A stretch of 64,000 nucleotides of DNA, from the NCBI RefSeq assembly GCF_900890425.1, contig NZ_CAAHFG010000001.1:1364001-1428000 (forward strand). The letters run 5' to 3'. Of the stretch, positions 10,470 to 64,000 are shown piece by piece. The notes beneath the pieces were generated by a model that was not told where the DNA came from, ran no database searches, and saw only the letters and a program-made list of their open reading frames with translations. Within the stretch, counting starts at the first letter, position 1, and each line of letters opens with the position of its first letter. This stretch comes from Pontiella desulfatans. Its GTDB lineage: Bacteria; Verrucomicrobiota; Kiritimatiellia; Kiritimatiellales; Pontiellaceae. The position numbers and the translations under genes were made by a program.

Positions 10470-11471
10470 ATGGCATCGCTTAAGGATATTGCAAACGAAC
10501 TGAACCTCTCCATTCCGCTGGTCTCCAAGGTGCTTAGTGGGCGGATGGGGACGACGGGCTGCAGCGAGGAAAACCGGCTGGCTATTTTGGCTAAGGCGAA
10601 AGAGTTGGGCTATAAACCCAACATTCTTGCACGGGCGTTGCGCAACGGGAAAACGGGTTCCATCGGCGTCTTTGTCCATCCGCTGGGAGCGCCGGGCTCC
10701 GATCTGGTCGAGCGTTTGCTGATGGGGCTGAGCACGCAGGCGAACTTCCGGGAGCAACGGCTCTGCCTGAGTTTCTACGAGACCGACAACGAATTCCTCC
10801 AACGCTTCGGAAAGACTGCCCGCGCCGAGATTGACGGCCTGTTGATTACCGGCATCTACCACCCGGATCTGGCAGATCTCTATAAGGAGATTGAAGAGAG
10901 CGGAATTCCCATTGTGACCCTATACAAGAATGCCGAAAAGCAGCCGGGTAGCATCAATGTCTATTGCGACGACTTCCAGGTGGGGTATTTGCCGACCAAG
11001 CATCTGTTGGAAAACGGTTGCCGGAAAATTGCCCACATCCGTTCCATGGAGGCGCGCTACCAGGGTTATTTGAAGGCGCTGGATGAGCATGGTGTGCTAG
11101 AAGATTGTGCTCTGGTGTTTGATGCGATCGAACGCTACGACATGGATTCTGGGCGCGAAGCGGTTCTCCATTGGCTGGAAAACGGAATCGAATTCGATGG
11201 CCTCGTGGCCGAGTCCGACCACCAGGCGTATGGCGGCATTAACGAACTGCTCGCCCATGGCAAAAAGGTACCGGACGACGTCAAGGTATTCGGGGTCGAT
11301 GATTCTCCCGTTTGTAGTTTGTGCCCCATTCCAATCAGTTCGGTTTCCCAGCAGGTGCAGGAAATTGGCGCATTGGCCATTGATACGCTGATCAAGCGGA
11401 TTGCCGGCGACCCGACTGAGTCCATTGAGGTGGCTCCCGAGCTACGCTTGCGAAGCTCCACGGGCAACTAG
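10470..11471 (+). CDS. LacI/GalR-family transcriptional regulator
   Basis: 333 residues, full length for the family. The N-terminal helix-turn-helix is clear: LKDIANELNLSIPLVSKVLSG (residues 4-24), then the hinge region LGYKPNILARALRNGKTGSIGV. The periplasmic-binding-protein-like sensor domain follows, with FDGLVAESDHQAYGGINEL near 240 and VFGVDDSPV near 275. The recognition helix IPLVSKVLSG is typical of sugar-responsive repressors. The gene has its own promoter and stands alone between the FAD oxidoreductase and the frameshifted TonB-like gene. The effector is unknown. Confidence 0.9.
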   Translation: MASLKDIANELNLSIPLVSKVLSGRMGTTGCSEENRLAILAKAKELGYKPNILARALRNGKTGSIGVFVHPLGAPGSDLVERLLMGLSTQANFREQRLCLSFYETDNEFLQRFGKTARAEIDGLLITGIYHPDLADLYKEIEESGIPIVTLYKNAEKQPGSINVYCDDFQVGYLPTKHLLENGCRKIAHIRSMEARYQGYLKALDEHGVLEDCALVFDAIERYDMDSGREAVLHWLENGIEFDGLVAESDHQAYGGINELLAHGKKVPDDVKVFGVDDSPVCSLCPIPISSVSQQVQEIGALAIDTLIKRIAGDPTESIEVAPELRLRSSTGN

Positions 11472-14624: not shown

Positions 14625-15244
14625 CATTGGTGCTGATGGGGTAAATCTAGAATATGCATTAAGGACGGTAGGTATGAACGTAGCCCGTCGCACTTTTCAA
14701 CCGACGTTTCCAATTGTCTTCATGCATGCCAATTGTTCCTTGCCTGGTAGGCGTGAAGGCTATCGTGGAAGGAGGATGCCGATTCTTTTGGCACCAGCAG
14801 GGACGCGCGGCGGCGCATACCAAGAGTGCCGACTTGTCGAACTCTTGTTTAAAATGGCGATAAAGACCTTGATTTAACGATATGAATCAGGGTGTGTTGG
14901 TGAAGTTTCCTCTCCAGATGATAAATTACATCCGTGAATAATCCGAGGAAACCGTAATGGAAGCGGATGCTGGTGCGATGACCGCATGAATGAATTATTG
15001 AGAGGGCCGATGAAGCGAAACGTTACCTTAGGGCGGTTATGGCGTTCTTGATGATTGAATTTGCCCGTCGTTTGCAAGGTCGTTGTTCGGGTTACAACGT
15101 GGCAGAGGATGGAATTCAGGCGCAGTATGAGGATCATCTGGAAAGTGTTCTTCCAGCTAATTGAACGATAAACCACCTGTTCCCGTCCAATTTTTAAAAT
15201 TACACTTCCAATGGCTAACCGGTCTAGAGGCTGATCGATCGAAT
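14625..15244 (+). other. Long leader region with a possible broken small gene
   Basis: This 620-base stretch has no convincing gene. An 87-codon frame at 14614-14877 overlaps the preceding stop and has no family resemblance. From 14994 to 15164 a frame without a start codon encodes ERADEAKRYLRAVMAFLMIE and FARRLQG, helix-like and better than random. It is preceded by a 10-codon frame (ATG 14957, with GAGGAA upstream) ending in TGA at 14987. This could be the wreck of a small gene or a structured leader of the transcript starting near 14932. Confidence 0.35.
14873..14925 (+). promoter_or_regulatory. Regulon site A and promoter for the first BNR_4 gene
   Basis: TTTAACGATATGAA (14873-14886) is a variant of the shared palindrome. 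TTGGTG (14897-14902) follows after 10 bp, and GATAAA (14920-14925) lies 17 bp further on as a -10 candidate. The next gene starts at 15245, leaving a leader of about 310 bases. Confidence 0.6.
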
Positions 15245-18200
15245 ATGAATAGGAACCCAATTAACAAATACGTACGTTTGGCAACCGGCGCAATGGTTTT
15301 GGGAGCATCCGTCTGCCAGGCCGCCGAGGTGGAGCTGTTGCAGTCCACGATCGTGGATGACAACGCGCTGAACTTCAGCAGTTCCGCAGCCACGTTCAAC
15401 CGGAACGTCAACGGACGCACCTACCAGCGGTTCCCCATGGCAACGTTCAAGGGCTATCAATATGCGACCTACTACAACGGGGATCGCCATGTCTGCCTGG
15501 CGCGGCGCAAGCTCCCGGATGGGGCGTGGGAGGTGATCCGTTTCACCGATTATACGATTTCGGTTAGTGATTCACATAATGTGGTTTCCGTGGGCATCTG
15601 CCAGAAGGATGGAACCATCCATCTCATGTTCGATCACCACAAGGACGACCTCAACTACCGCGTCTCCAATATCGGCGTGGCTTCCAATCCGGAATCAGTG
15701 ACCTGGAGTACGGCTTTGTTCAGCTCGATCACGGACAATCTGGGATCGGTTGGGTCAATCACGCAGCTGACCTATCCCACCTTCTTCAACGCGCCCAACG
15801 GAAACCTGATGCTCTACTATCGCTATGGGGGATCGGGCAGCGGCGACGGCATGATCCAGGAATACAACGGGACGACGCACGACTGGACGACCGGGCTAGG
15901 GAAGTTCATTTCCCGCAGTGGAAGCTACTCAGGGGCGTATTCCTCGACCTCCCGCAACCCCTACATCAACGGGATTTCATACGGCGGCAACCGGCTGCAT
16001 GTCTCGTGGGGCTGGCGCGAAACCAGTACCACTTCCGCCAGCAACCATGATTTGAACTATGCCTACAGCGACGATGACGGACGGACGTGGCGCAACAATG
16101 CGGGAACGCAAATAGGTACGACGGGTTCTTCTTTTATATCGATCAATTCGCCCGGACTGATCGTGGCCCCGATTCCGCAGAATATCGGCCTCTCCAACCA
16201 ATACACCCACTATGCCTTCCCGGATGGCAGCTGCCATGTGATGGTGGAGCATAACAATGTTTATCAGCACTATTGGCGCAACGCCGCCGGTACCTGGAGC
16301 CAGGGAACGCTCTCCTTCGACGGCAGCCGCCCGAAGCTGTGCGGCGATGACGACGGCAACCTGTTCCTGGCCTATGCGGATGGGGGAAATCCCCGCATCG
16401 CCAAGGGCGTGCCCAACGCCGGGCAAACCGCTTGGAGCTGGTCGCAGGTCTATACCGAAAGCGGCACCACCGAAGGCGGGGAAGGGCAGATCGACTATTC
16501 CCGGTGGGAGTCCGACCGCATCCTTTCCTTCTATGGGCAGGAAGAACCGCCCAACACCGGGGAAGCGCCATCGCCCCTGCATGTGTTCGATTACAAGGTC
16601 TCCGGCAAGGCGATCCTGCCGGTGCCGGAAAACGGTGCGGCGGTATTAGATGTGGGCCTGGCTTTGGAATGGACGGCCGGCATCGACGCGACAGCCCACC
16701 GGGTATATTTGGGAACCAGCGAATCGGCGGTTGCCTCGGCAACCACAGGCTCGCCGGAATACAAGGGGGAGCAACCGGGCACGGTGTTCTCGCCCTCGCC
16801 CTCGCTTTCAAGCCTGGGCACTTATTATTGGCGCATCGACGAGGTGCAGGCCGATTCAACCGTGATTCCGGGGATGGTCTGGGCATTCAGCCTGATCCCG
16901 GTGGGCGGAACGGTGACGCAGGTCGTGGATCAAGGCACCTGGAACGCGGCTTCAACCTGGGATCCGGCGATCGCCCCGATGGCTGGAATCGACTACGAGA
17001 CCTCCATGCAATTGCGCTCACCCTCCACATCCGCCACCTTCGCCGGCGACATGCTGACGGTCTTGCAAGGCGGCGAGCTTGCCCTGAGGAACATCGGCGC
17101 CCATGTCGTCGTGGTGCCCGATCTGGTGTTGGATGGCGGCAATATCCGGGCAAGCACCGGGCTCGATGTGACCTCGACCTTGGCCGGAAGCATCAATGTG
17201 CTCACCAATGCCGCACTGGTTGGGTACTGGAATACCACCGGGGTGCGAAACCTGCGGATACTTTCGAACATCGGCGGCAGCGCCGAGCTGCGCAGCACCT
17301 CCTCGAACATCGCCTCCACCCACACGCTCTTCATCGACAACCCGGGCAACAGTTTTTCCGGCGCCTGGATCAGCGAGAGAGGAACCATTGAATTTGCGAG
17401 CGCAGGTGCCGTGGGTTCGGCCGATATCGATGTGCGGGCCAACGGCAGCGTGGCGATTATGGGCAACTGGGACGGGTTGGCTGTTGGCGCCGCCTTGACG
17501 GTTGCCGACAGCGCCTCCGCCACGGTGGATTTTGGAAGCAATCGATGGACGGTTGCCAACCTGGCCATCGGCAGCACCAGTGTGGGCACCGGCTCCGTCT
17601 ACACGGCATCGGAGTTGAATGCGCTGGGAGCCGCCGTGTTCGCCGGTAGCGGCTCGATCCAGGTTGGTGTTCTTTCGCCGCCTCCACCCGGCGTGCTGAT
17701 TGCGGGATGGGATGGCTGGGACAGCGACACCGCGCCGGGTGCCTCCTACACCGCCTCGGACATAACCGCCACCGCAACCGCCTCCGCCGTGGGCGGGACG
17801 GAAAGCTGGAGCACGACCGACACCAGCACCGATCCCGGCCGCGGCTCCAGTGGGGACACGACGTGGGGCAACCATGCCGGGCCTCCCGCCGCGAGCGCAA
17901 CGACCGATGTCCACGGCGCAAACTTCACCTTGACCAATGGCAAGACCGACGGGGAGATTACGTTGACGATCAACAATACCGGTACGGAAGACTTCGAGTT
18001 GGGGGCGTTCCATTTCGACGCCGTTGCTTTCCGTCCCAACGCGGCGAGAACCTATGCGCTGAACGTATTGGCCGGCAGCGATATTTCGGTCGGCAATGTC
18101 TTCACTTCGCCCAATGATGCGATCACCTCTCTGAATGGAGGGTTGGAGGGGCACGACCAGCACGATGATATTGAAATCTACTTGAACGTTCTCGCCGATA

Positions 18201-18520
18201 ACGTCCTTGAAGCAGGCGGGACAGTGATCTTCCAGCTGGAGTTTTCGTCGGGAACCGGAGACGGGGGAGGCCACCACCTGTTTGTTGACAATGTCGGGAT
18301 TTCGCTCGTGGGCGGTTCGGAACCGGCCGATCCCCCGGTGCTTGAATACAATTTCAGCAACGGGAACATGGTGTTCACCTGGTCGGACAACCGCTTCAAG
18401 GTGCAATCCCGCACCAACCTGGTGAACGGAACCTGGCATGACATTCCGGGCGGCACGGTTCCACCGGTGAGCGTTGCCCCGACCAATGGCGCGGATTTCT
18501 TCCGGCTGATCGAGCAATAA
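15245..18520 (+). CDS. Secreted BNR_4 beta-propeller protein, PL24/PL25 ulvan lyase-like, with C-terminal modules
   Basis: 1091 residues from ATG 15245; an earlier ATG at 15161 would precede the signal peptide (NKYVRLATGAMVLGASVCQA) by 28 residues. Residues 30-455 are a BNR_4 propeller. SDSHN (His111), FDHH (His131/132), TYP (Tyr177) and YYRYG (Arg193) recall the His/His/Tyr/Arg active site of PL24/PL25 ulvan lyases; this is from memory of those structures. A fibronectin-like domain (about 460-550, ending YYWRIDEVQ) follows, then beta-strand repeats (555-810), an AGWD module (about 816-1020) and the FKVQSRTNL tail (1030-1091) shared with five neighbours. It probably acts outside the cell on a sulfated polysaccharide. 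The BNR_4 family is secure; lyase activity is inferred. Confidence 0.75.
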   Translation: MNRNPINKYVRLATGAMVLGASVCQAAEVELLQSTIVDDNALNFSSSAATFNRNVNGRTYQRFPMATFKGYQYATYYNGDRHVCLARRKLPDGAWEVIRFTDYTISVSDSHNVVSVGICQKDGTIHLMFDHHKDDLNYRVSNIGVASNPESVTWSTALFSSITDNLGSVGSITQLTYPTFFNAPNGNLMLYYRYGGSGSGDGMIQEYNGTTHDWTTGLGKFISRSGSYSGAYSSTSRNPYINGISYGGNRLHVSWGWRETSTTSASNHDLNYAYSDDDGRTWRNNAGTQIGTTGSSFISINSPGLIVAPIPQNIGLSNQYTHYAFPDGSCHVMVEHNNVYQHYWRNAAGTWSQGTLSFDGSRPKLCGDDDGNLFLAYADGGNPRIAKGVPNAGQTAWSWSQVYTESGTTEGGEGQIDYSRWESDRILSFYGQEEPPNTGEAPSPLHVFDYKVSGKAILPVPENGAAVLDVGLALEWTAGIDATAHRVYLGTSESAVASATTGSPEYKGEQPGTVFSPSPSLSSLGTYYWRIDEVQADSTVIPGMVWAFSLIPVGGTVTQVVDQGTWNAASTWDPAIAPMAGIDYETSMQLRSPSTSATFAGDMLTVLQGGELALRNIGAHVVVVPDLVLDGGNIRASTGLDVTSTLAGSINVLTNAALVGYWNTTGVRNLRILSNIGGSAELRSTSSNIASTHTLFIDNPGNSFSGAWISERGTIEFASAGAVGSADIDVRANGSVAIMGNWDGLAVGAALTVADSASATVDFGSNRWTVANLAIGSTSVGTGSVYTASELNALGAAVFAGSGSIQVGVLSPPPPGVLIAGWDGWDSDTAPGASYTASDITATATASAVGGTESWSTTDTSTDPGRGSSGDTTWGNHAGPPAASATTDVHGANFTLTNGKTDGEITLTINNTGTEDFELGAFHFDAVAFRPNAARTYALNVLAGSDISVGNVFTSPNDAITSLNGGLEGHDQHDDIEIYLNVLADNVLEAGGTVIFQLEFSSGTGDGGGHHLFVDNVGISLVGGSEPADPPVLEYNFSNGNMVFTWSDNRFKVQSRTNLVNGTWHDIPGGTVPPVSVAPTNGADFFRLIEQ

Positions 18521-18565: not shown

Positions 18566-18618
18566 TTCAACGATTTGAAGTGCGACTGTGTTGCCGAATG
18601 TTTCTAGTCGTTTATACA
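18566..18618 (+). promoter_or_regulatory. Regulon site B with promoter
   Basis: TTCAACGATTTGAA (18566-18579), a perfect 5+4+5 palindrome, lies 11 bp before TTGCCG (18591-18596). A 16-bp spacer leads to TATACA (18613-18618). This is the clearest promoter of the set; transcription would start near 18625, with the palindrome centred at about -53. Confidence 0.75.
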
Positions 18619-18717
18619 ACACACCTACGATGAAAGAGGAATCCGCTGGCTTGCATTGCTTGGCCGGTGGATCCAAAGGATAACAACCAGGTCGAAGGCG
18701 ATATACAGGAAGATTTT

Positions 18718-21700
18718 ATGACTAGAACAACGATATTTGCATGGTTTGCGGTCTTTTGCTTATGGGCCTCGGAAGCCTCGGCCTATAAGGTGTGGCTGGG
18801 CACCCACAAGTGGGAGGGCGTGGCGGCCGACAACCTCGATCAATGGGACATGGCCATCGATAAGATCGACGGGATCAACTATGTGCTGCTGGATGCCCGA
18901 CCGGCCCGGCCAGCCGGTGACGGCGCCAATACCAGTGACTGGGACACGATGATCGGCCGGATTGACCAGTCGATTCCCGGTATGGCGGAGATCGCCCGAT
19001 CGCAATATGCGCCCGCACACAGCCGGACCTTGGCTGAGCGGATGGCGAACGAGTTTGCAACGGTTGAAAACCGGGGCGGCGAGATCGATATCATCATGCT
19101 TTATGATGAGGAGAAAGACGGGACTGTTTGGAAATTTTATCTTCAGGACGTCCAAGACGTTCGCGACTGGCTGGATAACAATGGACACGGGGATGTGACC
19201 CTTTGCTTCAACCTCCGCAACAATGACCAGGAGCGGTTGGCGCTGGCCCAGGAGGCTATCTTTGACGGGGTTATGATCGAGGCGAGCGCCACGCGATGGG
19301 TGGAGGATCGGTATAACGTCCATACCCTGTTGCAGGATTTGTGGACGGATCCGAGTACGAGCAACAAGAAGATCTATTTTCAGATTCCGCGGCATGAAAC
19401 GCCTGTCGCATCGGCAAGAAACGGCATTCCGACCTCGCCGATCAACCAGTATATCGAAACCCGCCGGGCGTTGTGGGTGATCAAGGATCTGATGGGCGAT
19501 GCCTTCATGCAAAGTGACCAGGTTATCTTCATTGTCTGCAACTATGGCGATACGTTCGATACCTTTCCGGAAACCGCCAGCAATGATACCCTCTATGTGA
19601 ATACCAAATCGGGAGTAGCCCTATCCTTGATTGAGCAACGCTCTGCTTTTGAGGGACGTACCGGTTTGGTGGACGAAACCCTTTGCGCAAGTTACGACCG
19701 GCTGCTCGCTCCGACCATCAGCTCCATTGCCGACCAAACCGTGCAGGCCAATACCTTGGCGGGGCCGTTGGCCTTCACGATCGATGACGACTTGACCGTC
19801 CCCTCCGCGCTCACGCTGACCGGAGCCTCCTCCGACACCAACCTGGTGCCGTTGGAAAATATATTCTTTGGTGGCAGCGGCTCGAACCGCACCGTCACGG
19901 TTGCTCCTGCATTCGGCCAAAGCGGCACGGCGGAGATCCGTGTTTTAGTAAGCGACGGCACGCTGGGCACCACCGAGACCTTCGAGGTTTCCGTACTGCC
20001 TCCGGGGATCGTGGTTGGCACGATCTACAGCTCCGGCACCGATTGTTCCATCAAGGAAGATTCCGTCATCGAAAAGCTGACGGATGCCACCGTGGACGTG
20101 GGCTGCCGGGGTGGGTCGCCGTATGTCGAGCGTTGCACGGTCTATGTGTTTGAACTGCCGGATTTCGGCGCCGTCGGCAATCCGTTTTCGGCAGCCGGTT
20201 TCGCCTTCAATTTCATAGGCAAGGACGGCACGTTGCGCGACTACGACCTCTACGGCCTGGGTCGGCGCAGCAGCTCCACGGTGTTGGCCAGCGATTACTA
20301 CGCGCTGAGTTCCACGCCGGACCCCACCGATGCAACGCGGCTGCAGCAGGACATTCTGACCGCCGCCACACCGCTCGGACTCGTCGGCACCTCGGCAACC
20401 GGAAGCTCCGGTCTGGTGGCATACCTCAACGCCCAGTTTGCAGCCGGCGCGGGTGCCGGGGAATATGTTTTTCTTCGGATCAACTCCACAGCTCCGAAAT
20501 CCGCCATCAGCTATGCGACGTTGACCCTGTCCGAAGGCGGCGTGGCCGTGCCAACCGATACGCGGCCACGGATCACCTACCAGGCGGTGGGCAACACGCC
20601 CCCCTACATGGGTTTTATTGCCGACCAGACGATTCCCGCCAACACCAGCACGGGGCCGCTGGCCTTCACGTTGGGCGACGATTCGACGCCGGTCGGCTCG
20701 ATCACGCTTGAAGCGGATTCCTCGAACACCAGTTTGGTTCCGGTGGCGAACATTGTGCTGGGCGGCAGCGGTTCCAACCGGACCGTGACCGTTACGCCCG
20801 TGGCCGAAGAAGTAGGCTCTGCACAGGTTTCCATCATCGCGAGCGATGGTACGTTGAGCGCCACCAACACGTTCACGCTGACGGTAACGCCTCCTCCGCT
20901 CGTCTATGAACTGATCGCCGGGTGGGATACCTGGGATAGCACCACGGCTCCCGGCGTTTCCTACACGGCGGCGAACATCACTGCATCCGCGACGGCATCC
21001 GCCGAAGATGGCTCTTCCGATTGGAGCCGGACGGACGATGGAAGCGATCCCGGCCGCGGCTCAAGTGGGGACGGTACTTGGGGAACCCATGCGGGACCGC
21101 CTGCGGCAAGCGCAACAACAGATGTCCACGGTTGCAATTTCGCGTTGACCAATGCCAAGACGAACGGGCAGATCACGGTCACCATCAATAATGCCGGTAC
21201 GGAAGACATCGCTTTGGGCGCCTTCCATTTCGACGCCGTTGCATTCCGTAGCAAGGCTGCCCGGACCTACGCATTGAACGTGTTGGACGGAAGCGATGTT
21301 ACCGCCGGAAATGTCTTCACATCGCCGACCGATGCGATCACCGACCTGGGTGGAGACCTCGTCGGCCACGACCAGCATGATGAGATCGACATCGACCTGA
21401 CCGGACTTGCCGATAACGTCCTCGAAGCAGGTGGAACGGCCATTCTCCAAATTATGTTTACGGGTGGCGCAGGTGACGGCTCCGGCGGACACCACCTGTT
21501 CGTGGACAACCTCGGCCTCTCAGGGGCATTCACGGAAACCGTAGCGCCTCCGGCGCTTGACCTGATCGCCGGTTGGGATGTCTGGAACAGCGGCGCAGTG
21601 CCGAGTGCCAATGTCGTCGCGACGTACATCACCGCATCGGCCGTGGCCATCTCGGAAGATCCTACCCGCCCTTGGCATGTGACCGACGAGCGGGGCGCCA

Positions 21701-22368
21701 GCGCGGACGGCACCTGGGGATCCTTTTCGGGAGCACCAACGGCAAGTGTGACAACGAATGCGGATTTTGAAAACCTGGAGCTTCCCAACGCGGTGACCGG
21801 CGGAACGCTCACGTTCTCCGTTACGAACAACGGTACGGCCGGCATCGAGCTCGACACCTTCCACTTCGACGCCTACGCCTTCCGTTCCAAGGCCGCCCGA
21901 ACCTACGAATTGAGTGTATTGCCCGGGGGCGGTATTTCAGCAGGCGTCATTTACACCTCTGGTGTCCAGGAGATCACCGAAGTGAATGGCGCATGGGACA
22001 ACTTCGCACACGACGATATCGACCATTCCCTGACCGGGCTGGCCGACAACACCCTTGGAGCGGGCGAGTCCGTCCAGTTCCGGCTCACCTTCTCCGGAGG
22101 GGCGGGCGACGCTTCCGGCGGCCATGATCTGTGGGTGGATAACGTGGCCATCTCAGGAACGATATTGCCCTCCACGGAACCCCCGATGCTCGAATACAAC
22201 ATGGGCGGCGGCGACATGGTCTTCAACTGGACCGGCGACGGCTTCAAGGTCCAGTCCCGCACCAACCTGACCATGGGTACCTGGCAGGATGTGCCCGGCG
22301 GCGATTTGCCGCCGGTAACAAATTCAACGACCGATCCAGCAGCGTTCTTCCGGTTGATCGGGCAATAG
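18718..22368 (+). CDS. Secreted modular protein with the unrecognised YxVWxG N-terminal domain (paralog 1)
   Basis: 1216 residues; ATG 18718 gives a signal peptide ending ASEASA and has AGGAA upstream. Residues 20-330 share a domain with the proteins at 23595 and 27075: YKVWLG, LDQWDMA, IIMLYDEE, RDWLDNNGHGDVTLC, GVMIEAS, IVCNYGD and ALSLIEQ. The alternating strands and helices, with a conserved Glu in MIEA, read like a (beta/alpha) barrel. No LamG domain here. Instead two Ig/cadherin-like repeats (IADQTVQANT at about 335 and IADQTIPANT at about 640) flank a beta domain, then two AGWD modules (about 730-900 and 945-1140) and the FKVQSRTNL tail. Function unknown; a glycoside hydrolase or binding protein acting on the locus substrate is a guess from context. 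Confidence 0.6.
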   Translation: MTRTTIFAWFAVFCLWASEASAYKVWLGTHKWEGVAADNLDQWDMAIDKIDGINYVLLDARPARPAGDGANTSDWDTMIGRIDQSIPGMAEIARSQYAPAHSRTLAERMANEFATVENRGGEIDIIMLYDEEKDGTVWKFYLQDVQDVRDWLDNNGHGDVTLCFNLRNNDQERLALAQEAIFDGVMIEASATRWVEDRYNVHTLLQDLWTDPSTSNKKIYFQIPRHETPVASARNGIPTSPINQYIETRRALWVIKDLMGDAFMQSDQVIFIVCNYGDTFDTFPETASNDTLYVNTKSGVALSLIEQRSAFEGRTGLVDETLCASYDRLLAPTISSIADQTVQANTLAGPLAFTIDDDLTVPSALTLTGASSDTNLVPLENIFFGGSGSNRTVTVAPAFGQSGTAEIRVLVSDGTLGTTETFEVSVLPPGIVVGTIYSSGTDCSIKEDSVIEKLTDATVDVGCRGGSPYVERCTVYVFELPDFGAVGNPFSAAGFAFNFIGKDGTLRDYDLYGLGRRSSSTVLASDYYALSSTPDPTDATRLQQDILTAATPLGLVGTSATGSSGLVAYLNAQFAAGAGAGEYVFLRINSTAPKSAISYATLTLSEGGVAVPTDTRPRITYQAVGNTPPYMGFIADQTIPANTSTGPLAFTLGDDSTPVGSITLEADSSNTSLVPVANIVLGGSGSNRTVTVTPVAEEVGSAQVSIIASDGTLSATNTFTLTVTPPPLVYELIAGWDTWDSTTAPGVSYTAANITASATASAEDGSSDWSRTDDGSDPGRGSSGDGTWGTHAGPPAASATTDVHGCNFALTNAKTNGQITVTINNAGTEDIALGAFHFDAVAFRSKAARTYALNVLDGSDVTAGNVFTSPTDAITDLGGDLVGHDQHDEIDIDLTGLADNVLEAGGTAILQIMFTGGAGDGSGGHHLFVDNLGLSGAFTETVAPPALDLIAGWDVWNSGAVPSANVVATYITASAVAISEDPTRPWHVTDERGASADGTWGSFSGAPTASVTTNADFENLELPNAVTGGTLTFSVTNNGTAGIELDTFHFDAYAFRSKAARTYELSVLPGGGISAGVIYTSGVQEITEVNGAWDNFAHDDIDHSLTGLADNTLGAGESVQFRLTFSGGAGDASGGHDLWVDNVAISGTILPSTEPPMLEYNMGGGDMVFNWTGDGFKVQSRTNLTMGTWQDVPGGDLPPVTNSTTDPAAFFRLIGQ

Positions 22369-22417: not shown

Positions 22418-22448
22418 TTTAACGATTTGAAACCTGATGGTGTTGAGG
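22418..22448 (+). promoter_or_regulatory. Regulon site C
   Basis: TTTAACGATTTGAA (22418-22431) sits 11 bp before TTGAGG (22443-22448). A GATAAA at 22463-22468 is near but closely spaced, so the -10 is uncertain. The site is 50 bases upstream of the next gene. Confidence 0.65.
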
Positions 22449-22481
22449 GGCGGGCGTATTCTGATAAATCCATGCATTGTA

Positions 22482-23573
22482 ATGAAAAATAGAATGCATA
22501 TTTCAGTAGTGGTTTCAGTGGCCGTTATCGCGGCGATACTCTTGGGCCTTTACGTTTTGAAGGAGTCGAACCAGCAGGAAACGGAAGGCCGAACATCCGG
22601 ACAACCGGTGCCCAGCGTGGCTGAGGAACCTGATGTTCAGCAGGGTGATTCCGTTACCGCCAAGGATGAGGTGCATGTGGGACAACGCCGCCCTCCGCTC
22701 AGCCAGAAGGTGGATGCCATTCAGCAGGAACCTGATTACAAGGAGCGTCCGGGTATGCTGTTTGATCTGATGCTTGAAGCGTCGCTTCAGGAGGTTCACG
22801 GGTTATTGGCATTAAGTGAGGACGTCACTTATTCTGTGGGGTTCAGGGATGACATGAAAGCGGCGGCCTTCGAACGGTGGTATCAGTTGGATCCGGTGGC
22901 GGCGATTCGGGCGATGGATGCCTCCACGCTGTCTGCCAGCCAAAAGAATTCAAGGATGGAAATCTTTCTTGAAGATTGGGCGGGCCGGTCGCCGCAGGAT
23001 GTTGCGGCTCTTCTTGGGCAGGGTCAACTTACCGGCGTCTCTTCGGACCTGACCTATGGCGCATTGGTTCGAGGCAGTGCGAAGAACGGCGACCTTGAAG
23101 TGGTCGATGCTGCGTTGGCCCTCATGGACGATCCAACGTTGAGGTTTTATGCGCTCAAGTCCGCCGCACGTGTTTTGCAACGGGATCATGCCGACCGGTT
23201 TGAGGGTTGGTTGGTCACCTTGCCTGGCTCCGACCAGAATACGGCCCTTGCCGAAAGTGCCTGGATGCTGGCGGATCAAGATATGGACCGCGCGCTTCTA
23301 GGATTAGATCAATTGGCGGCGCGCGGTGCCGATGAACTTCCGGTCACGCGACTGAGAGTCGCCGTGAAGTGGGCGGATAAGGATCCAGTCAAAGCGGCAA
23401 ATTGGGTGGCCGCCCAGGACGTGACGGGAGAAGACCGGGAAATTCTATTTGCGAACGTCATGCGCGTTTGGATTTCAAAAGATCAGTCGGCAGCGGTGGC
23501 CTGGGTGGAGTCCTTAATCGAAAAAGGGGAAATCGACGAGGCGTTCATGAATCGGGTTGGCGGGCGATTATAG
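22482..23573 (+). CDS. Membrane-anchored all-alpha protein of unknown function
   Basis: 363 residues from ATG 22482; an upstream start at 22437 would lie inside the promoter. MKNRMHISVVVSVAVIAAIL is an uncleaved signal anchor, followed by a low-complexity linker (residues 28-80) and then helices rich in Ala, Trp and Asp (AAAFERWYQLDPVAAIRAMD, WAGRSPQDVAALLG, WADKDPVKAANWVAAQD, SAAVAWVESL). Such WxxxDPxAAxxW repeats are a recurring theme in periplasmic proteins of Verrucomicrobia, with no assigned role known to me. It is probably anchored in the inner membrane with a helical-repeat domain in the periplasm. It sits 21 bases before paralog 2 and is likely co-transcribed from site C. Confidence 0.6.
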   Translation: MKNRMHISVVVSVAVIAAILLGLYVLKESNQQETEGRTSGQPVPSVAEEPDVQQGDSVTAKDEVHVGQRRPPLSQKVDAIQQEPDYKERPGMLFDLMLEASLQEVHGLLALSEDVTYSVGFRDDMKAAAFERWYQLDPVAAIRAMDASTLSASQKNSRMEIFLEDWAGRSPQDVAALLGQGQLTGVSSDLTYGALVRGSAKNGDLEVVDAALALMDDPTLRFYALKSAARVLQRDHADRFEGWLVTLPGSDQNTALAESAWMLADQDMDRALLGLDQLAARGADELPVTRLRVAVKWADKDPVKAANWVAAQDVTGEDREILFANVMRVWISKDQSAAVAWVESLIEKGEIDEAFMNRVGGRL

Positions 23574-30483: not shown

Positions 30484-30497
30484 TTTAACGATTTGAA
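30484..30497 (+). promoter_or_regulatory. Regulon site D
   Basis: TTTAACGATTTGAA, identical to site C. The hexamer at the standard 11-bp distance is TTTTCG (30509-30514), a poor -35, with TAAAAC (30532-30537) 17 bp further. It precedes the gene at 30629. Confidence 0.6.
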
Positions 30498-30628
30498 TAT
30501 GCGCAAGGTTTTCGGGGTGCAGTTGTTGGAATAAAACCAAGTTCGATAAAAGAGGAATAAACCGCATCGCTGAACCAGCGCATATGCGCGTGTGGAATCC
30601 AGAGCGGGACGAGTGGCAAGGAGATACA

Positions 30629-33600
30629 ATGAGGAATCATGTTTTTAACGCCGTATTGTTGACGTGTTTGTTTTTAGGTGGCGCATCAAGACTCGATGCG
30701 GCGGTCTATTATGAATCCGGCGGCTTGGTCATTATGGAGATGGAGAACACGGATTCTCCGCTAGGGCTGTGGCAACAGCAATCCTCCCTGGGCGGGTATA
30801 CGGGAAGCGGCTATCTGCAGTTCCTGGGGAATACGTACGAAACGGGGCCGGCAACCTCTCCGCTTGAGTACACGTTTAAAGTGAACCAATCCGGGCTTTA
30901 CTATCTCCACCTCCACTGTGCGAAGGAGACGCATGATGGCCGAACAGATGTGGCCAACGACTGCTATGTGCGCGTGGAAGGGGATTACAGTGCCGGGCCG
31001 GCTCCATGGGACAGTCATGGCGACAATGCCCCCTTGGGCATGCTGCAAAGTGATACCAAATATTTCGGGGGAGCGGCTGATGCCTGGAAATGGGAAGATG
31101 GGGAGCTGTCTTCGGGGGGCAATGGAAACCTGGATGCCGGCGGAACGTCAAACAAGCGGGTGGCGGTCTACGATTTCAAGGCCGGGGAGACCTATACGCT
31201 GGTTGTTTCCGGGCGCTCCAAGTTTTTCAGGATCAACCGCATCATGTTCCGCCACACGTCGGTGGCGAAGACTACGGCGCAGAACCTCGGCAATCCGGAA
31301 TCGGGGATGGTGACGTCGGTTGCAGAATATGCCTATGAGGCAACCTCCGATTTTCCCGACTACCTGTCCGGCGATGTTCCGTACTATATCGACCCTGGCA
31401 ACGACGCGCTGGCCATCGCGGCGAACATCGAGGCGAACCGTAGTGGTTTTGCCCGGGCTTCGAGAACCTTTGATGGCGCGACGGGCCACTACGATGTGAC
31501 GATTACCACGCTGACGGAAGAGGATGGGGAATCCACCTACCGGCTGCTGGTGAACGGATCGGTTGTGGCCACCTTTGTGAATACCTACATCGGCCCCGGT
31601 TCGCCGCAGGACCTGCAACCGGAAACCCACCGATGGGTGGGCATCCCGATCAACAGCGAAGACACCCTGGCCATCGAGTCGAACGCCGACACCAATGGCG
31701 AAATTCCCGAAGGCACCAACGGCACCGCCTGGGCGCGCGGCCGCTGGCGCCAGATCGAGCTGACGTCTTCGCTGGTTAAGCCGCCGACCGGTCGGCTGGC
31801 CTATGTCGCCGACGGCAACTCGCCGGACCCGGACGATATCGGCGCCAATGCCGTGCTGTTGGGGCTGCTGAAAGGGGCTGAACAGCAGGATCGGCTGGTT
31901 CACTTCTCGCATTCGTGCGACCTGGTTAAAGCCAGCAACATTTCCGCTGCGGACGAACTTCGCCGCCAGGCGTATTTGCACCGGACAGCCGCTGAAGGGT
32001 TGTCCTACTTCGGGCCGTTCACCAATCTGGCCGACTACTACAACTGCCGCTCCAACCAGACGGCGGCGGTCGCGAACCTGACGGCGGCCATCGACGCTTC
32101 AACCGCCGCCGATCCGCTGTGGATCATCGAAGCCGGCGAACCCGACATCATCGGCTATGCCTTGCAGGCCGCCGACCCCGCAAAGATACCGTATGTTCAT
32201 GTGGTGTCGCACCATCCGGCCAATGATGATAGCGGCGACATCTTCACCTGGGCACAAATCTTGGCCTTTGGCGTAACCGAACATCAGATCGGCGACCAGA
32301 ATGTTGGATTGCAGGTGCTCATGAGTTCCGGATTGTGGGACTGGGCGGAAGGCCATGGCAATCCGGCCATGGTCTGGATTCTTGACCAGCTGAAATATGC
32401 GGAAGCCGATGGCGTCGTCGGTTTCCAGACCGGCAAGTACGACTGCTCCGATGCCGGGATGATCTACTGGTGGTTGACCGGTGCCGATAACGGTGGAAAC
32501 AAGCATTCCACCCCGGTCGAAATAAAAGACCTGCTGCTCTACGATGGCATCACCCTTGCCCCGACGGTCACCATGGTTGCACTGGGCTCCGCGGTGGATT
32601 CGACCGCAGGCAGCACATGGTCGGATGCGCAGCCCGCGCATTCGGGAGCCCATTACATGGTTCCCGCCACCGGAAACCTACGCAGTGAAAGCGGAACTTC
32701 AACCTTCCCCGGCGACTCGCTAACCGTTCTGGCCGGGGGTAAATTCCAGGTGCGGTCGCTGGATACACTCGGCGAAACCACGACGGTGAACCAGTTGGTT
32801 TTCAGAAACGGAACCAGTTTTGCGGCGGGAGAAGTTGCCCAACTCGCCGCGGGAACCGGTAATGATTTGACGAATGTGCTCGGCGGAAGCATCTCGAATT
32901 CGGGTTATACCAAGTTCCTTTCCTACCATGCCTACAGTGGCGGCGCCATTTCCCGGAGTTTGAGCATCCAGTCTGCGATTGACGGTGATGGGCATATCCA
33001 GGCCTGGGAAGGATCGACGGGCTATGGAGGGGAAACCGTGATTATCGCCAATGCGGCCAACACGTTTTCCGGAACATGGGAAGTTGGTACGGACACCACG
33101 CTGGTGTTCAACAACGCCGGTGCGGTTGGTTCGGCGGATGTTGTTGTTCTTGACTCGGGCAAGCTACGGATTTTGGGTGATTGGAACACCTATGCAAACC
33201 TGACGGTGGCCGACACTGCGACCACATCAGTCGATCTGGGTTCCCATGCCTGGAAGGTAACCCATCTGGACGTTGGAGGAACTGCCATTGCCGACGGCTC
33301 GTATACCGCGGCCCAGCTCAATGCATTGGGAACGAATCCGGTATTCAGCGGCAACGGAACCCTTGTTGTTGGCGCCGCCCCGCCTCCTCCCGTATCGGCA
33401 ATTGTTGCCGGTTGGGATACGTGGGATAGCGCGACCGCTCCCTCCGCATCCGTGCTTGCACCGAATGTCACCGCATCGGCTGAAACGACCACAGAACAGC
33501 AATCTTGGAATGTCGTCGACGAGCGCGGTGCCAGCAACGACGGTGATTGGGGAACCTTTGCAGGCCCCCCCTCGGCGAGTACCGTAACCAATGCGGATTT

Positions 33601-34204
33601 TGAAAACCTTGAGTTGCCGAATGCCACCACCGGCGGAACCATCACGTTCTCGATCACAAATAATGGTCTGGCCGATATCCAATTGAATGCCTTTCATTTT
33701 GACGCCTATGCGTTTCGTCCCAAGGCGGCCCGGGCATACTCGCTGAGCGTGTTGGCCGGCAGCGATATTACCGTCGGTACGATCTACACGTCAGCGGACG
33801 ATGAAATTTCTTCCGTAGGTGGGGCGTGGGACAACGGTGCGCATGACGATATCGATCTTTCCCTGGCCGGGCTTGCCGACCATACCCTTGCTGCCGGCGA
33901 GTCGGTCGACTTCCTGCTGGCCTTTTCAAGCGGAGAGGGGGATGCCGCCGGCGGCCATGATCTGTGGGTGGACAACGTTGCCGTTTCGCAGCTGGTCACC
34001 GTCCCCCCGGCCGCACCCCCGGTGCTCGGTTTCGACATGAACGAAGGCGATATGGTCATCTCCTGGAGTGGGAGCGGATTCAAGGTGCAGTCCTGCACCA
34101 ACCTGACGGTAGGCGCCTGGAACGATGTGCCCGGCGGCGATATGCCGCCGGTGACGAATTCCCTGACCCATCCGGAAGCCTTCTATCGTTTGATTGAGGA
34201 ATGA
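30629..34204 (+). CDS. Secreted protein with nucleoside-hydrolase-like domain, N-terminal binding domain and C-terminal modules
   Basis: 1191 residues from ATG 30629 (AAGGAG 8 bases upstream; the earlier ATG at 30584 lacks a signal peptide). Residues 20-205 resemble a CBM6-like beta-sandwich (VIMEMENTDSPLGLW, YTFKVNQSGLYYLHLHC). Residues 215-385 are a second beta domain. Residues 388-640 (AYVADGNSPDPDDIGANAVLL, VHFSHSCDLV, WIIEAGEPDIIGYAL, HVVSHHPAND) resemble the nucleoside-hydrolase-like (DUF1593-type) fold, whose first strand carries the Asp cluster that binds calcium. Then come passenger strands (645-925), one AGWD module and the FKVQSCTNL tail. It was probably recruited for glycan work rather than nucleosides, because it is secreted and controlled with the locus. 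Confidence 0.6.
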   Translation: MRNHVFNAVLLTCLFLGGASRLDAAVYYESGGLVIMEMENTDSPLGLWQQQSSLGGYTGSGYLQFLGNTYETGPATSPLEYTFKVNQSGLYYLHLHCAKETHDGRTDVANDCYVRVEGDYSAGPAPWDSHGDNAPLGMLQSDTKYFGGAADAWKWEDGELSSGGNGNLDAGGTSNKRVAVYDFKAGETYTLVVSGRSKFFRINRIMFRHTSVAKTTAQNLGNPESGMVTSVAEYAYEATSDFPDYLSGDVPYYIDPGNDALAIAANIEANRSGFARASRTFDGATGHYDVTITTLTEEDGESTYRLLVNGSVVATFVNTYIGPGSPQDLQPETHRWVGIPINSEDTLAIESNADTNGEIPEGTNGTAWARGRWRQIELTSSLVKPPTGRLAYVADGNSPDPDDIGANAVLLGLLKGAEQQDRLVHFSHSCDLVKASNISAADELRRQAYLHRTAAEGLSYFGPFTNLADYYNCRSNQTAAVANLTAAIDASTAADPLWIIEAGEPDIIGYALQAADPAKIPYVHVVSHHPANDDSGDIFTWAQILAFGVTEHQIGDQNVGLQVLMSSGLWDWAEGHGNPAMVWILDQLKYAEADGVVGFQTGKYDCSDAGMIYWWLTGADNGGNKHSTPVEIKDLLLYDGITLAPTVTMVALGSAVDSTAGSTWSDAQPAHSGAHYMVPATGNLRSESGTSTFPGDSLTVLAGGKFQVRSLDTLGETTTVNQLVFRNGTSFAAGEVAQLAAGTGNDLTNVLGGSISNSGYTKFLSYHAYSGGAISRSLSIQSAIDGDGHIQAWEGSTGYGGETVIIANAANTFSGTWEVGTDTTLVFNNAGAVGSADVVVLDSGKLRILGDWNTYANLTVADTATTSVDLGSHAWKVTHLDVGGTAIADGSYTAAQLNALGTNPVFSGNGTLVVGAAPPPPVSAIVAGWDTWDSATAPSASVLAPNVTASAETTTEQQSWNVVDERGASNDGDWGTFAGPPSASTVTNADFENLELPNATTGGTITFSITNNGLADIQLNAFHFDAYAFRPKAARAYSLSVLAGSDITVGTIYTSADDEISSVGGAWDNGAHDDIDLSLAGLADHTLAAGESVDFLLAFSSGEGDAAGGHDLWVDNVAVSQLVTVPPAAPPVLGFDMNEGDMVISWSGSGFKVQSCTNLTVGAWNDVPGGDMPPVTNSLTHPEAFYRLIEE

Positions 34205-34214
34205 ACACAGTTAT

Positions 34215-34267
34215 TTTAACGATCTTAATCATCTAAAGGTTGTCCATTTTCGCGGAGGTTGTTATGG
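34215..34267 (+). promoter_or_regulatory. Regulon site E with promoter
   Basis: TTTAACGATCTTAA (34215-34228), 11 bp, TTGTCC (34240-34245), 16 bp, TTATGG (34262-34267). It begins 10 bases after the stop of the preceding gene. Confidence 0.6.
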
Positions 34268-34325: not shown

Positions 34326-36638
34326 ATGAAGAGTAGGACAATGCAAGCGGTGGCCGTTGCTGTTATGGCGGCATGTGTCGTGGGGGCGAATGCCCAAACC
34401 ACAACGAACGCAACCCCAACGGATTCCCATGTGCTTCAAGGAAACTTCCAAGTCGGCGGTCTCCCCGTCTTTTTGGCGAACAATTCGAACGCGGACCGTT
34501 GCGGTACTGGTGGGGCCACTGGACAGCAGCGTGTCAACCAAGCCATTTTTAGCTTCGACCTGCCAAGTATTCCCGCCGGTGAGACGGTTAATGCGGCGAC
34601 CTTCTCGTTCAAGATGTTTTCCACCGCGGTCAATGGAGCACCACTGGAGTTTGATATGGTGCTCTGCCTGATGGACCATGACGATATCGGTGATTTTTCG
34701 GGAGCGGATTTTGTTGAGGCCACCGCGCCTATCAACTCGCCGTTGACCAACGGTGTTGTGATTGCCCAGCTTGCGGTGGCGGATGTCTCCAACAATGAAA
34801 CGATTGACGTATCGCTGACCGGCGCCGCATTGGCGCAGCTTGCAGGCCTCTATGATGGTACGGGTACACCCTCCCAATCCAAACTCTGGTTCCGCGCCAG
34901 CACCAGTACGAACATCGATACAAGTGTGGCGGATAACGCAAATGACCGATTCAACTTTGATGATGCGGGGCACACCGGACCGAACATCAGCGGCTTGGAG
35001 CTGGACTGGGGAATCCCTTCGCCGGATATCTATTACGTCGCAACCACGCCCACCAACTGGACGGTCGGTGCGGCCTGGAGCGATGGCAATCCTGCGGCGG
35101 CCGGCGACGATTACTACGTCACCAACGGCGTGGCCCTGCAAACACCGTCCGCCACCGCCACGTTCCCCGGAGACGCGCTGGTTCTGGAAGGTTCGCAGAC
35201 CGTGGAACTGATGGCTTCCGGAGCCGATGTGATTACTTTCCCGTCCCTGGACCTAAGCGGCGACACGCTGCGCGCCGGTGTGGTCGACAGCGGCGAAGCA
35301 AAGGTCGATGGAACGCTCAATGTTATTGGCAATTCCTCGTTTGGCGGCGCCACGGACAGTTCGCGAGATCTGCGCGTTCTTGCGCTGGTCACCGGGTCGT
35401 CGACCGTGACGCTGTCCGCGCCCGGCAAAACGATCTATATCGAACATGCCGGCAACACCTTCGATGGCACGTGGAACCTGACGGGCAACTATGCGGAGTT
35501 CGCCTCTCCGGCTGCGGTGGGTGCGGGCAGTATCCAGGTGGGCAACTTCGGCAAGCTGCGCATCCTCGGCGACTGGGACGGCCTTGCTACTGATGAAACC
35601 CTGACGGTGGCCGATAGCGCGAATGCTGTTGTGGAAGTGGGATCGTATGCCTGGAAGGTATCGGCCCTGACGTTTGGTGGCTCGAATGTCGTTGACGGTG
35701 CCGTTTATACGACGGCTGAGCTGAATGCGATGGGGACCAATGCGGTCTTCACCGGAGCAGGGACCATCCAGGTGGGCACGCCTCCGCCGCCACCTCCGGG
35801 CGAGCTGATTGCGGGTTGGGATTCCTGGAGCAGTGGTACTGCTCCCACCGTAACCGTAGTCAAGGCGGGCATCACCGCATCCGCTACGGCAACGGGTACC
35901 GGCGGCGATTGGACGATAGGGGACACCGAAACCGATCCCGGTCGCGGCTCCAGCGTGGACGGTACCTGGGGAACCTATGACGGCGGCGGGAATCCTCCGA
36001 ACACGGTGACCAATGAGCATGGTGCCAACATGACGTTGACCAATGGCAAGACGGACGGAGAGATCACATTCACGATTACAAATAGTACGGCATCAGCCAT
36101 AAACCTGGGCTCGGTACACTTTGACGCCCTTGCGTTCCGTCCCAACGCGGCGCGCACCTATGCGGTGAACGTGTTGGCCGGCAGCGACATCACCGTTGGC
36201 AATGTCTTCACTTCGCCCGATGATGCGATCACCGAGATTGCCGGAAGCGCCGTATTGCTGGCATCGCGCGACGCGCATGACGATATCGACGTTTCCCTGG
36301 CCGGTCTTGCCGACAGCACGCTCGAAGTCGGTGAAGTGGCCATTGTCCAACTGGCTTTCTCGTCGGGAACGGGCAGTGGCGGAGGCCATCATCTGTTTAT
36401 CGATAACGTAGGCTTTTCAGCCGCGGCGTCTACCGGTCCCGTTGAGCCTCCCGTCATGGAATCCGATGTTTCCGGAGGAAATGTCACCCTAAGCTGGGCA
36501 TCGGATGGGGCATTCAAACTGCAGACCCGGCCAAATCTTGTGGTTGGCGATTGGGCCGATGTGCCCGGAGCCACATCCAGTCCTGTGGTCGTTCCGGCCA
36601 CCAACGCTGTCGAGTTCCTCCGTTTGATTGAGCAATAG
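34326..36638 (+). CDS. Secreted DNRLRE-like protein with passenger, AGWD module and shared tail
   Basis: 770 residues. Signal peptide MKSRTMQAVAVAVMAACVVG ANA. Residues 25-235 look like a DNRLRE-type beta-sandwich often found in carbohydrate-binding exoproteins (QAIFSFDLPSIPAGETVNAA, DVSLTGAALAQLAG, KLWFRAST). Passenger-like strands occupy 240-490 (GNTFDGTWNLTGNYAEF, GKLRILGDWDGL), an AGWD module 495-685, and the tail 705-770 (FKLQTRPNLVVGDW, FLRLIEQ). No catalytic domain is recognised, so it may be a binding or scaffold protein. A very strong ribosome-binding site (TAGGAGGTTAGGAG) precedes the ATG. It is the last of the run of large secreted proteins and is followed by a hairpin-rich spacer. 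Confidence 0.6.
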   Translation: MKSRTMQAVAVAVMAACVVGANAQTTTNATPTDSHVLQGNFQVGGLPVFLANNSNADRCGTGGATGQQRVNQAIFSFDLPSIPAGETVNAATFSFKMFSTAVNGAPLEFDMVLCLMDHDDIGDFSGADFVEATAPINSPLTNGVVIAQLAVADVSNNETIDVSLTGAALAQLAGLYDGTGTPSQSKLWFRASTSTNIDTSVADNANDRFNFDDAGHTGPNISGLELDWGIPSPDIYYVATTPTNWTVGAAWSDGNPAAAGDDYYVTNGVALQTPSATATFPGDALVLEGSQTVELMASGADVITFPSLDLSGDTLRAGVVDSGEAKVDGTLNVIGNSSFGGATDSSRDLRVLALVTGSSTVTLSAPGKTIYIEHAGNTFDGTWNLTGNYAEFASPAAVGAGSIQVGNFGKLRILGDWDGLATDETLTVADSANAVVEVGSYAWKVSALTFGGSNVVDGAVYTTAELNAMGTNAVFTGAGTIQVGTPPPPPPGELIAGWDSWSSGTAPTVTVVKAGITASATATGTGGDWTIGDTETDPGRGSSVDGTWGTYDGGGNPPNTVTNEHGANMTLTNGKTDGEITFTITNSTASAINLGSVHFDALAFRPNAARTYAVNVLAGSDITVGNVFTSPDDAITEIAGSAVLLASRDAHDDIDVSLAGLADSTLEVGEVAIVQLAFSSGTGSGGGHHLFIDNVGFSAAASTGPVEPPVMESDVSGGNVTLSWASDGAFKLQTRPNLVVGDWADVPGATSSPVVVPATNAVEFLRLIEQ

Positions 36639-38747: not shown

Positions 38748-38780
38748 AATTCAACGATTTGAATTGCGTTCCGATTGAGT
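38748..38780 (+). promoter_or_regulatory. Regulon site F
   Basis: AATTCAACGATTTGAATT (38748-38765) is a perfect palindrome with 7-bp arms around CGAT, the best copy in the window. TTGAGT (38775-38780) follows the 14-bp core at exactly 11 bp. The -10 is not clear (TATGGG at 38793 is too close). The site decides the start of the next gene, which must lie downstream. Confidence 0.7.
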
Positions 38781-51212: not shown

Positions 51213-51244
51213 ATTCAACGATTTGAATGCTGTGTCCGTTGAGC
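51213..51244 (+). promoter_or_regulatory. Regulon site G at the head of the rhamnosidase operon
   Basis: ATTCAACGATTTGAAT (51213-51228), a perfect palindrome with 6-bp arms, then TTGAGC (51239-51244) 11 bp after the 14-bp core. A clear -10 is not evident. Position places the six-gene block 51320-63669 under the same control as sites A-F. Confidence 0.7.
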
Positions 51245-62562: not shown

Positions 62563-63669
62563 GTGAACCACCGAATAAAAGGAATCCTCTTTGCCGCGCT
62601 GTTGATCACAAGCTGTTCCGCCGTGTCCGATATTTTTGAACCCCGGGAGATCGTGCTCCGCATGGAAAAGGCGGCGCAGTGGCAGCTTGACCATCCGGCG
62701 AAATTCGATGTGTTGGAGTGGCATTGGGCGCCGTTTTACATGGGGCTGTCGGATTTGACGGAAACGACCGGCGACCGGAAGTGGATCGATGAAGTGAAGA
62801 AGATGGGCGAGACGCATGGCTGGAAGTTTGGCCGACGCCCGTACCACGCGGATGACCACGCCATTGGCCTGGCCTACATCAAGCTCTATCAGTTGGATAA
62901 GAAGCCCGAGGTCATCGCGGGGATCCAAAAGGAGTTCGACTGGATTCTGGCCAACCCGCCCAAGCAGATGATCAAGGGGGCAGATGGAAAGATGCGGGAA
63001 ACCTATAACCGCGAACGCTGGAACTGGTGCGATGCACTCTATATGGCTGCGCCGGTTTGGACTGGATTGGGGAAGGTGACCGGCGAGCCGAAGTACTACG
63101 ACTATATGGTGCAGGAGTGGAAGCAGGCGCATGCATGGTATTTCTGCGACGAGCACGACCTGTATTTTCACGACAAGCGCGACATCGTAAAGGTTTCCAA
63201 GGGTGGGGAACGGGTGTTCTGGGCTCGTGGCGATGGCTGGGTGTTCGGTGCCCTGGTTGAAATTCTCCAACTGCTTCCGGAGGACCATCCGGAGCGCGGT
63301 TACTTCCTCGATATCTACAACCGGATGGCGGTTAAGCTGCTTTCGATCCAGAAAGAGAATGGAACGTGGGCGCCAAACCTGTTGGATCCAACGGATCCGC
63401 CGCAGGATGACACGAGCGGTTCGGTGTTTTATGTCTATGGCTTTGCGTGGGGCATCAACCACGGAGTGCTGGATCGGGCAACCTACGAACCCGCAACTCG
63501 AAAAGGGTGGGCGGCCTTGTGCGAGCGGCAGAAAGAGGATGGTCGCCTCATCAATTCCCAGCCGGTTGGCGGTTACCCAAAACCGTTCGACCCCGGCACC
63601 ACCACGGTGTTCAGCATGGGCACCTTCATCAGCGCGGGGGCCGAAGTTTGGAGGATGGTCCGTCCGTAG
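62563..63669 (+). CDS. GH105 unsaturated uronyl hydrolase, lipoprotein
   Basis: 368 residues from GTG 62563 (GGAG upstream), 14 bases after the sulfatase. MNHRIKGILFAALLITSCSA is a lipoprotein signal (LITSC), so it is membrane-anchored. Barrel signatures: RRPYHADDHAIGLAYIKLYQ, RWNWCDALYMAAPVWTGLG (Asp157 as general acid), VFWARGDGWVFGALVEIL, SVFYVYGFAWGINHGVLDRA. It should remove the unsaturated uronic acid from lyase products at the membrane. Third GH105 in the window, each with a different predicted location. Last gene of the site G operon; no T-run terminator is seen after it. Confidence 0.92.
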   Translation: MNHRIKGILFAALLITSCSAVSDIFEPREIVLRMEKAAQWQLDHPAKFDVLEWHWAPFYMGLSDLTETTGDRKWIDEVKKMGETHGWKFGRRPYHADDHAIGLAYIKLYQLDKKPEVIAGIQKEFDWILANPPKQMIKGADGKMRETYNRERWNWCDALYMAAPVWTGLGKVTGEPKYYDYMVQEWKQAHAWYFCDEHDLYFHDKRDIVKVSKGGERVFWARGDGWVFGALVEILQLLPEDHPERGYFLDIYNRMAVKLLSIQKENGTWAPNLLDPTDPPQDDTSGSVFYVYGFAWGINHGVLDRATYEPATRKGWAALCERQKEDGRLINSQPVGGYPKPFDPGTTTVFSMGTFISAGAEVWRMVRP

Positions 63670-63729: not shown

Positions 63730-63762
63730 TTGATTTCGCATTGGAATTCAACGTGTTAAATT
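63730..63762 (+). promoter_or_regulatory. LacI-gene promoter with near-copy of the regulon operator
   Basis: AATTCAACGTGTTAAATT (63745-63762) matches the arms of site F with one mismatch and the same 4-bp spacer length starting CG. TTGATT (63730-63735) is a possible -35 and TTAAAT or GTTAAA inside the palindrome a possible -10. A protein bound here would block RNA polymerase, as in autorepression. Confidence 0.6.
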
Positions 63763-63790
63763 CTGCCGTTATCCTAAAGGAGCATGCTGC

Positions 63791-64000
63791 ATGAAAGTGA
63801 CGATGGACGATGTTGCCAAGAAGCTGGGGGTTAGCAATGCAACCGTATCGCTGGCGCTGAATAATTCCCCGAAAATAGCCAGGGCCACCCGCGAAAAAGT
63901 GTTGGCTGCGGCCAAGGAACTCGGCTATCAAACCAATCCGTATATCTCGGCCTTGATGGCCGCACGCCGCCAGGGCAGGAACCCGACGCAAACCCCGGTA
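63791..64000 (+). CDS. LacI-family regulator, N-terminal part (cut by window end)
   Basis: The first 70 codons are in the window, from ATG 63791 with AAGGAG eight bases upstream. MKVTMDDVAKKLGVSNATVS plus LALNNSPKIARATREKVLAA is a canonical LacI helix-turn-helix and hinge. NPYISALMAARRQ after the hinge is a variant common in Verrucomicrobia-type members. Its own promoter carries a near-copy of the operator found before seven transcription units in the window. It is therefore the best local candidate for the regulator of the whole locus. The sensor domain is outside the window. Confidence 0.85.
   Translation, partial: MKVTMDDVAKKLGVSNATVSLALNNSPKIARATREKVLAAAKELGYQTNPYISALMAARRQGRNPTQTPV

Follow-up and report, generated by a model that had tools for sequence, protein, structure and literature searches.

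Repression is the commonest mode of action of LacI-family proteins. In Bacillus subtilis, a single protein of this family, CcpA, serves as an activator when its site lies upstream of the -35 element (ackA, pta, and ilvB) and as a repressor when the site overlaps the promoter, the effect depending on helix face (PMC3463425). Cra/FruR of enterobacteria is likewise both a repressor and an activator of carbon genes (PMC4052901). The local LacI regulons of RegPrecise combine neighboring sugar-utilization genes with a palindromic operator and autoregulation, the last being found in 72% of the LacI factors studied, and 1173 of 1251 even palindromes among LacI-family operators have a central CG, which is typical but not obligatory (PMC4052901). 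A search of the text of that study found no mention of Verrucomicrobia.

Here, we analyzed LacI-A, a regulator of Pontiella desulfatans whose gene starts near the right edge of a 64,000-nucleotide stretch of genomic DNA (the window, to which coordinates without a prefix refer). The best explanation of the sequence data as a whole, which we put at roughly two chances in three, is that LacI-A activates a set of neighboring targets and restrains its own gene, while LacI-B is a duplicate with a co-diverged operator. The action that we infer for LacI-A resembles that of CcpA, in that one LacI-family protein would combine activating sites upstream of the -35 with repression elsewhere. However, CcpA is a global carbon regulator that mostly represses, whereas the predicted activator sites of LacI-A are the majority and share one distance, one orientation, and one local gene set; in sequence, the two proteins match weakly over residues 1-56. 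Cra/FruR is also global, acts on central metabolism, and lacks a fixed-distance local polysaccharide regulon. With the local RegPrecise regulons, LacI-A shares sugar-utilization neighbors, a palindromic operator, and a predicted autoregulation. The typical CG center, on the other hand, is absent, since the center is GT/AC in the self-site and GA or AA in the targets, and its absence from the target operator counts against our explanation.

Since autoregulation is common in the LacI family, the finding in its original form is well supported but concerns a regulator of an ordinary kind. Less ordinary are the non-CG center, the oriented, asymmetric, and phase-locked target operator, its symmetric version upstream of the LacI-A gene, and a regulon duplication in which the operator has diverged along with the regulator. 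Our search of open-licence literature found no paper on such a regulon in Pontiella, a phrase search for a LacI-family activator found no paper either, and the text of two strain papers, searched for regulators, yielded none. Sulfatases and algal-glycan enzymes number in the hundreds in Kiritimatiellae, and for one such system LacI-A provides a testable regulator, an operator code, and a gene set.

A symmetric palindrome upstream of LacI-A

LacI-A contains a LacI helix-turn-helix (PF00356, residues 4-49, E 1.4e-16, above the cut-off) and a C-terminal, periplasmic-binding-protein-like effector domain (PF13377, residues 185-316, E 5.5e-12). The features around its start are as follows.

62563 to 63669, + strand: GH88/105-type gene directly upstream of LacI-A, from which it is separated by a 121-bp gap
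63747 to 63760, no strand: putative self-operator TTCAACGTGTTAAA, of the symmetric form TTYAAC-NN-GTTRAA, 14 bp (the earlier 18-bp version spans 63745 to 63762)
63791 to 64000, + strand: start of the LacI-A gene, which extends beyond the window and ends, stop codon included, at C1:1428816; 341 aa, HTH and Peripla_BP_3

A previous sequence-only reading had noticed an 18-bp palindrome before this gene and likened its arms to those of an upstream site (site F). We found AATTCAACGTGTTAAATT at 63745-63762, with 28 bases between it and the LacI-A ATG at 63791, and it indeed corresponds to AATTCAA-N4-TTGAATT with one mismatch. That comparison was restricted to the arms, however, and once the whole of the target consensus is considered, in which the center is always CGAT, the self-site is a distinct, more symmetric form. 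As would be expected of a LacI/GalR operator, it reads as an inverted repeat, TTYAAC-NN-GTTRAA.

The palindrome is rare. There are nine matches to AATTCAA-N4-TTGAATT with up to three mismatches in the window versus 2.6 expected, and the chance of a match with at most one mismatch and any 4-bp center is, by a Markov estimate, 0.0095 per 64 kb and 1.8e-5 per 121-bp intergenic region. Pattern searches of the 8.66-Mb genome returned one exact copy of the RY-centered TTYAAC-NN-GTTRAA, which is the LacI-A self-site, and three exact copies with any center (the self-site, one at C1:1439958 that is also in the cluster described below, and one elsewhere), so uniqueness is limited to the RY-centered form. 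Among the 27 LacI-type genes of the genome, LacI-A is the only one with TTYAACNNGTTRAA at zero mismatches in the 150 bp upstream; no other gene of this type does better than two mismatches.

The nearest LacI-A ortholog (82%), from Pontiellaceae bacterium B12227, keeps both the palindrome and the surrounding target sites, which is the outcome that the sequence-only reading had proposed to look for. In B12227, the self-site reads TTCAACACGTTGAA, a perfect palindrome that lies 29 bp from the ATG and is the only exact RY-centered copy in that genome. When the two intergenic regions are aligned, the arms are conserved amid diverged DNA. The operator in the regulator's own promoter region is thus conserved in the one close ortholog; beyond it, self-site conservation extends to a looser site, 119 bp from the ATG, upstream of the LacI gene in an Opitutae MAG (60% LacI). 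This narrow conservation counts against our explanation. The RY-centered palindrome is absent from three other same-genus genomes, and a fourth has one, with the center GC. Those same-genus genomes that lack LacI-A also lack the cluster of target sites. The upstream regions of 28 distant LacI homologs (30-35%) contain no AACNNGTT or AACNNNGTT self-palindrome, so the operator looks specific to the subfamily of LacI-A. Weak resemblances, with two mismatches, occur upstream of three LacI-type cousins (L041, L045, and L049).

These data bear on whether the palindrome at 63745 could be a chance match. About 0.7 exact RY-centered matches are expected in 8.66 Mb under a Markov-3 model, and one of the three any-center matches lies far from the regulon. 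For the single intergenic region of LacI-A, however, the expectation is just 9e-6, and the ortholog holds a perfect copy at the same place, which makes coincidence extremely improbable.

Two other symmetric palindromes were observed. TTCAACTCGTTAAA, at C1:1439958-1439971, lies ~50 bp upstream of the target site at 1440008 before a GH39-like gene and is possibly a second operator. The third exact TTYAACNNGTTRAA palindrome of the genome, at C1:794181-794194, is outside the regulon and may be a chance match.

Sites of an asymmetric variant surround LacI-A

An asymmetric variant of the operator, with the consensus TTYAACGATNTGAA, is found upstream of neighboring sugar genes. Its sites extend over 87 kb, from window position 14873 to C1:1465541, and flank LacI-A on both sides. 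Nine of the 10 exact A-type sites that pattern searches returned from the genome are inside these 87 kb. Within the window, we list the following.

14873 to 14886, + strand: target site TTTAACGATATGAA, before ORF 15161-18520 (BNR_4)
18566 to 18579, + strand: target site TTCAACGATTTGAA, before ORF 18667-22368
22418 to 22431, + strand: target site TTTAACGATTTGAA, before ORF 22437-23573, whose true start probably lies further downstream
30484 to 30497, + strand: target site TTTAACGATTTGAA, before ORF 30584-34204
34215 to 34228, + strand: target site TTTAACGATCTTAA, before ORF 34326-36638
38750 to 38763, + strand: target site TTCAACGATTTGAA (site F), before GH88-GH3-sulfatase-BNR_4 genes
38775 to 38780, + strand: TTGAGT, a -35-like hexamer starting 11 bp past the end of the site at 38750, as an example of the spacing
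51214 to 51227, + strand: target site TTCAACGATTTGAA, before the operon GH106-GH78-GH78-sulfatase-GH88, which ends just upstream of LacI-A

The cluster encodes GH78, GH106, GH88/105, GH3, GH2, GH39-like, BNR_4, and sulfatase proteins together with an MFS_2 transporter, and the closest PDB match of one BNR_4 protein is an L-rhamnose-alpha-1,4-D-glucuronate lyase. Rhamnose, uronate, xylose, and sulfate are named as components of ulvan in PMC11101340. Judging by this enzyme content, the substrate would be an ulvan-like glycan, sulfated and rich in rhamnose and uronate, and LacI-A would be the local regulator of the ~87-kb gene set that acts on it, with an oligosaccharide as its putative effector. 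The operator code could be used for predicting which enzymes have a glycan substrate in common.

Three large proteins encoded behind target sites have no Pfam match (18667-22365, 1233 aa; 30584-34201, 1206 aa; 34326-36635, 770 aa) and could be surface proteins or glycan-acting proteins of kinds not yet described. The tenth exact site, at C1:2301171-2301184 on the minus strand, precedes a sulfatase gene and has TTGCTG at offset 11, and is therefore probably a distant member of the regulon.

Promoter geometry at the target sites and at the self-site

We compared the DNA downstream of 33 target sites from three clusters in two genomes, a set whose members are not all independent, since the C4 cluster (see below) duplicates part of C1 and B12227 is a related genome. 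A T is found exactly 11 bp after the site in all 33 cases, and TT in 30 of them. Moreover, 24 bp after this first T, at the place expected for a -10 given a spacer of 17-18 bp, the base is A or T in 33/33. Across the set, information is strong in the site itself, in TT(G/T) from offset 11, and at the -10-like position. We had left out three matches, one on the minus strand with no gene there to drive (C1:1439958) and two inside ORFs (B12227 139674 and 205534); when they are added, T at offset 11 is found in 34/36 and TT in 30/36. None of 16 inexact motif look-alikes outside the clusters has TT at offset 11. Between orthologous promoters, identity is 89% in the site and 81% in the TTG, versus 24-28% in the flanks. 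In the Opitutae MAG, the site downstream of the LacI gene, before GH3, GH39, MFS_2, and sulfatase genes, is followed by TTGTCA at offset 11; a site directly 3' of the LacI gene and ahead of a target gene was found in all five cases examined.

With the start point taken seven bases past the -10, this spacing would place the center of the target site at about -53.5, an activator-like position. A LacI-A dimer would thus bind the oriented, asymmetric TTYAACGATNTGAA near -53.5 at about a dozen promoters, where, 11 bp above a degenerate -35 that keeps only TTG, it would help RNA polymerase to start. The target promoters form a set on which to test how a LacI-type protein activates transcription.

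The same geometry speaks to the possibility that LacI-A binds all of the sites and represses everywhere, from -53.5 by blocking an upstream activator or by holding polymerase, and at its own gene as well, until a sugar releases it. LacI-family proteins do mostly repress. Furthermore, an upstream cre mediates repression at the lev operon (PMC3463425), which counts against our explanation. However, the target sites never overlap the -35 or the -10, and they stand at one exact distance from 33 weak--35 promoters, which is demanded by polymerase contact and not by simple repression. We therefore consider uniform repression quite unlikely and activation of the targets the better reading.

The self-site is different. 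It lies 30 bp from the ATG, and its center is 37 bp from the ATG, which leaves it unable to serve a start point 53 bp downstream. Having no target geometry, it fits either steric repression or a roadblock, both of which are negative feedback: LacI-A bound to the symmetric TTYAAC-NN-GTTRAA would hinder initiation or block read-through from the upstream operon. The sequence-only reading had suggested that one protein could act differently on its own gene and on its targets. The spacing agrees with this, inasmuch as the fixed, activator-like distance of the targets is impossible at the self-site, while binding and the sign of regulation are what we infer. Its further suggestion that the self-site overlaps the -10 found no support: no sigma70-like promoter scores there, and a possible -10, TTAAAT, is not kept in the ortholog. 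The LacI-A promoter is unrecognizable in a scan with the sigma70 consensus, which may not match the promoters of this phylum; this counts against our explanation.

How the self-site would restrain LacI-A depends on where the transcript comes from. If the GH106-to-GH88 operon, activated by LacI-A, reads through into the LacI-A gene, the bound palindrome would stop the transcript as a roadblock, which is a variant of our explanation. Consistent with this, LacI-A comes next after GH88 and reads the same way both in its own genome and in B12227 (gaps of 121 and 114 bp), and neither a + strand terminator nor a promoter was found by scanning the 121-bp gap. The gap nevertheless has room for a promoter, and promoters of this phylum may escape the scan, so we regard the roadblock as a minority possibility.

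A paralogous regulator with its own operator variant

LacI-B is the single close paralog of LacI-A in the genome (55%, the next best being 30%). It adjoins a second cluster, C4:37294-66128, with six sites that read TTCAACAATGTGAA, one of them starting with GTC. All five exact B-type sites of the genome are inside this cluster, within 30 kb of LacI-B. Reciprocal best hits pair several C4 genes with C1 genes, and some of these pairs have a site in each cluster. C4 therefore resembles a copy of part of the regulon that has since diverged. The only regulator recognized among the genes common to the two clusters is the LacI pair, which was seen as antisense shadow ORFs in the reciprocal-best-hit comparison and directly in the paralog comparison. 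Site positions 7 and 10 differ between the A-type and B-type sets, and the recognition helices differ as well, reading VSNATVS in both A proteins and IHSSTVS or IHPSTVS in the B proteins. In B12227, both paralogs are on one contig, with A-type sites around both and a B-type site beside LacI-B.

That two paralogs, two operator variants, and two adjacent clusters go together supports the earlier proposal that LacI-A may run the regulon, as far as sequence can indicate. It also argues against another protein being bound at the target sites, with the LacI neighborhood and self-site as coincidental or secondary. Binding by LacI-A is a prediction from the DNA, and a second LacI-type gene exists at window position 10470, both of which leave some room for such a protein; yet no other regulator is recognized among the genes common to the clusters, and the same-genus genomes without LacI-A are also without the site cluster. 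We hold this alternative to be improbable. The gene at 10470-11471 itself, on the left side of the cluster, was rejected as the regulator: neither the B12227 clusters nor C4 contain a reciprocal best hit for it, and no site of the LacI-A type lies upstream.

LacI-B would thus be a second copy of the regulator in charge of a second copy of the regulon, with an operator, TTCAACAATGTGAA, that has diverged along with it, and the two proteins form a natural pair for studying how specificity splits after duplication. One point against our explanation is that the region upstream of LacI-B, which we checked, has no self-site, meaning that autoregulation is not shared by the whole subfamily. Whether the pattern is general is, in our judgment, an even question: a LacI subfamily of Kiritimatiellae and Opitutae may serve chiefly to activate a specific pathway from an oriented, asymmetric operator fixed 11 bp upstream of a degenerate -35, with a symmetric operator at its own gene, and duplication may have given rise to two regulator-operator pairs within it, each with its own copy of a polysaccharide regulon.

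Two further observations concern the LacI-B loci. C4:34523-67163 also carries two alginate-lyase-family genes and a Mu-type transposase gene. In B12227, a target-type site, TTCAATAATTTGAA, at C151:187266, lies ~235 bp upstream of the LacI-B ortholog and has TTGCTT at offset 11, a geometry that reads as if LacI-B were activated there.
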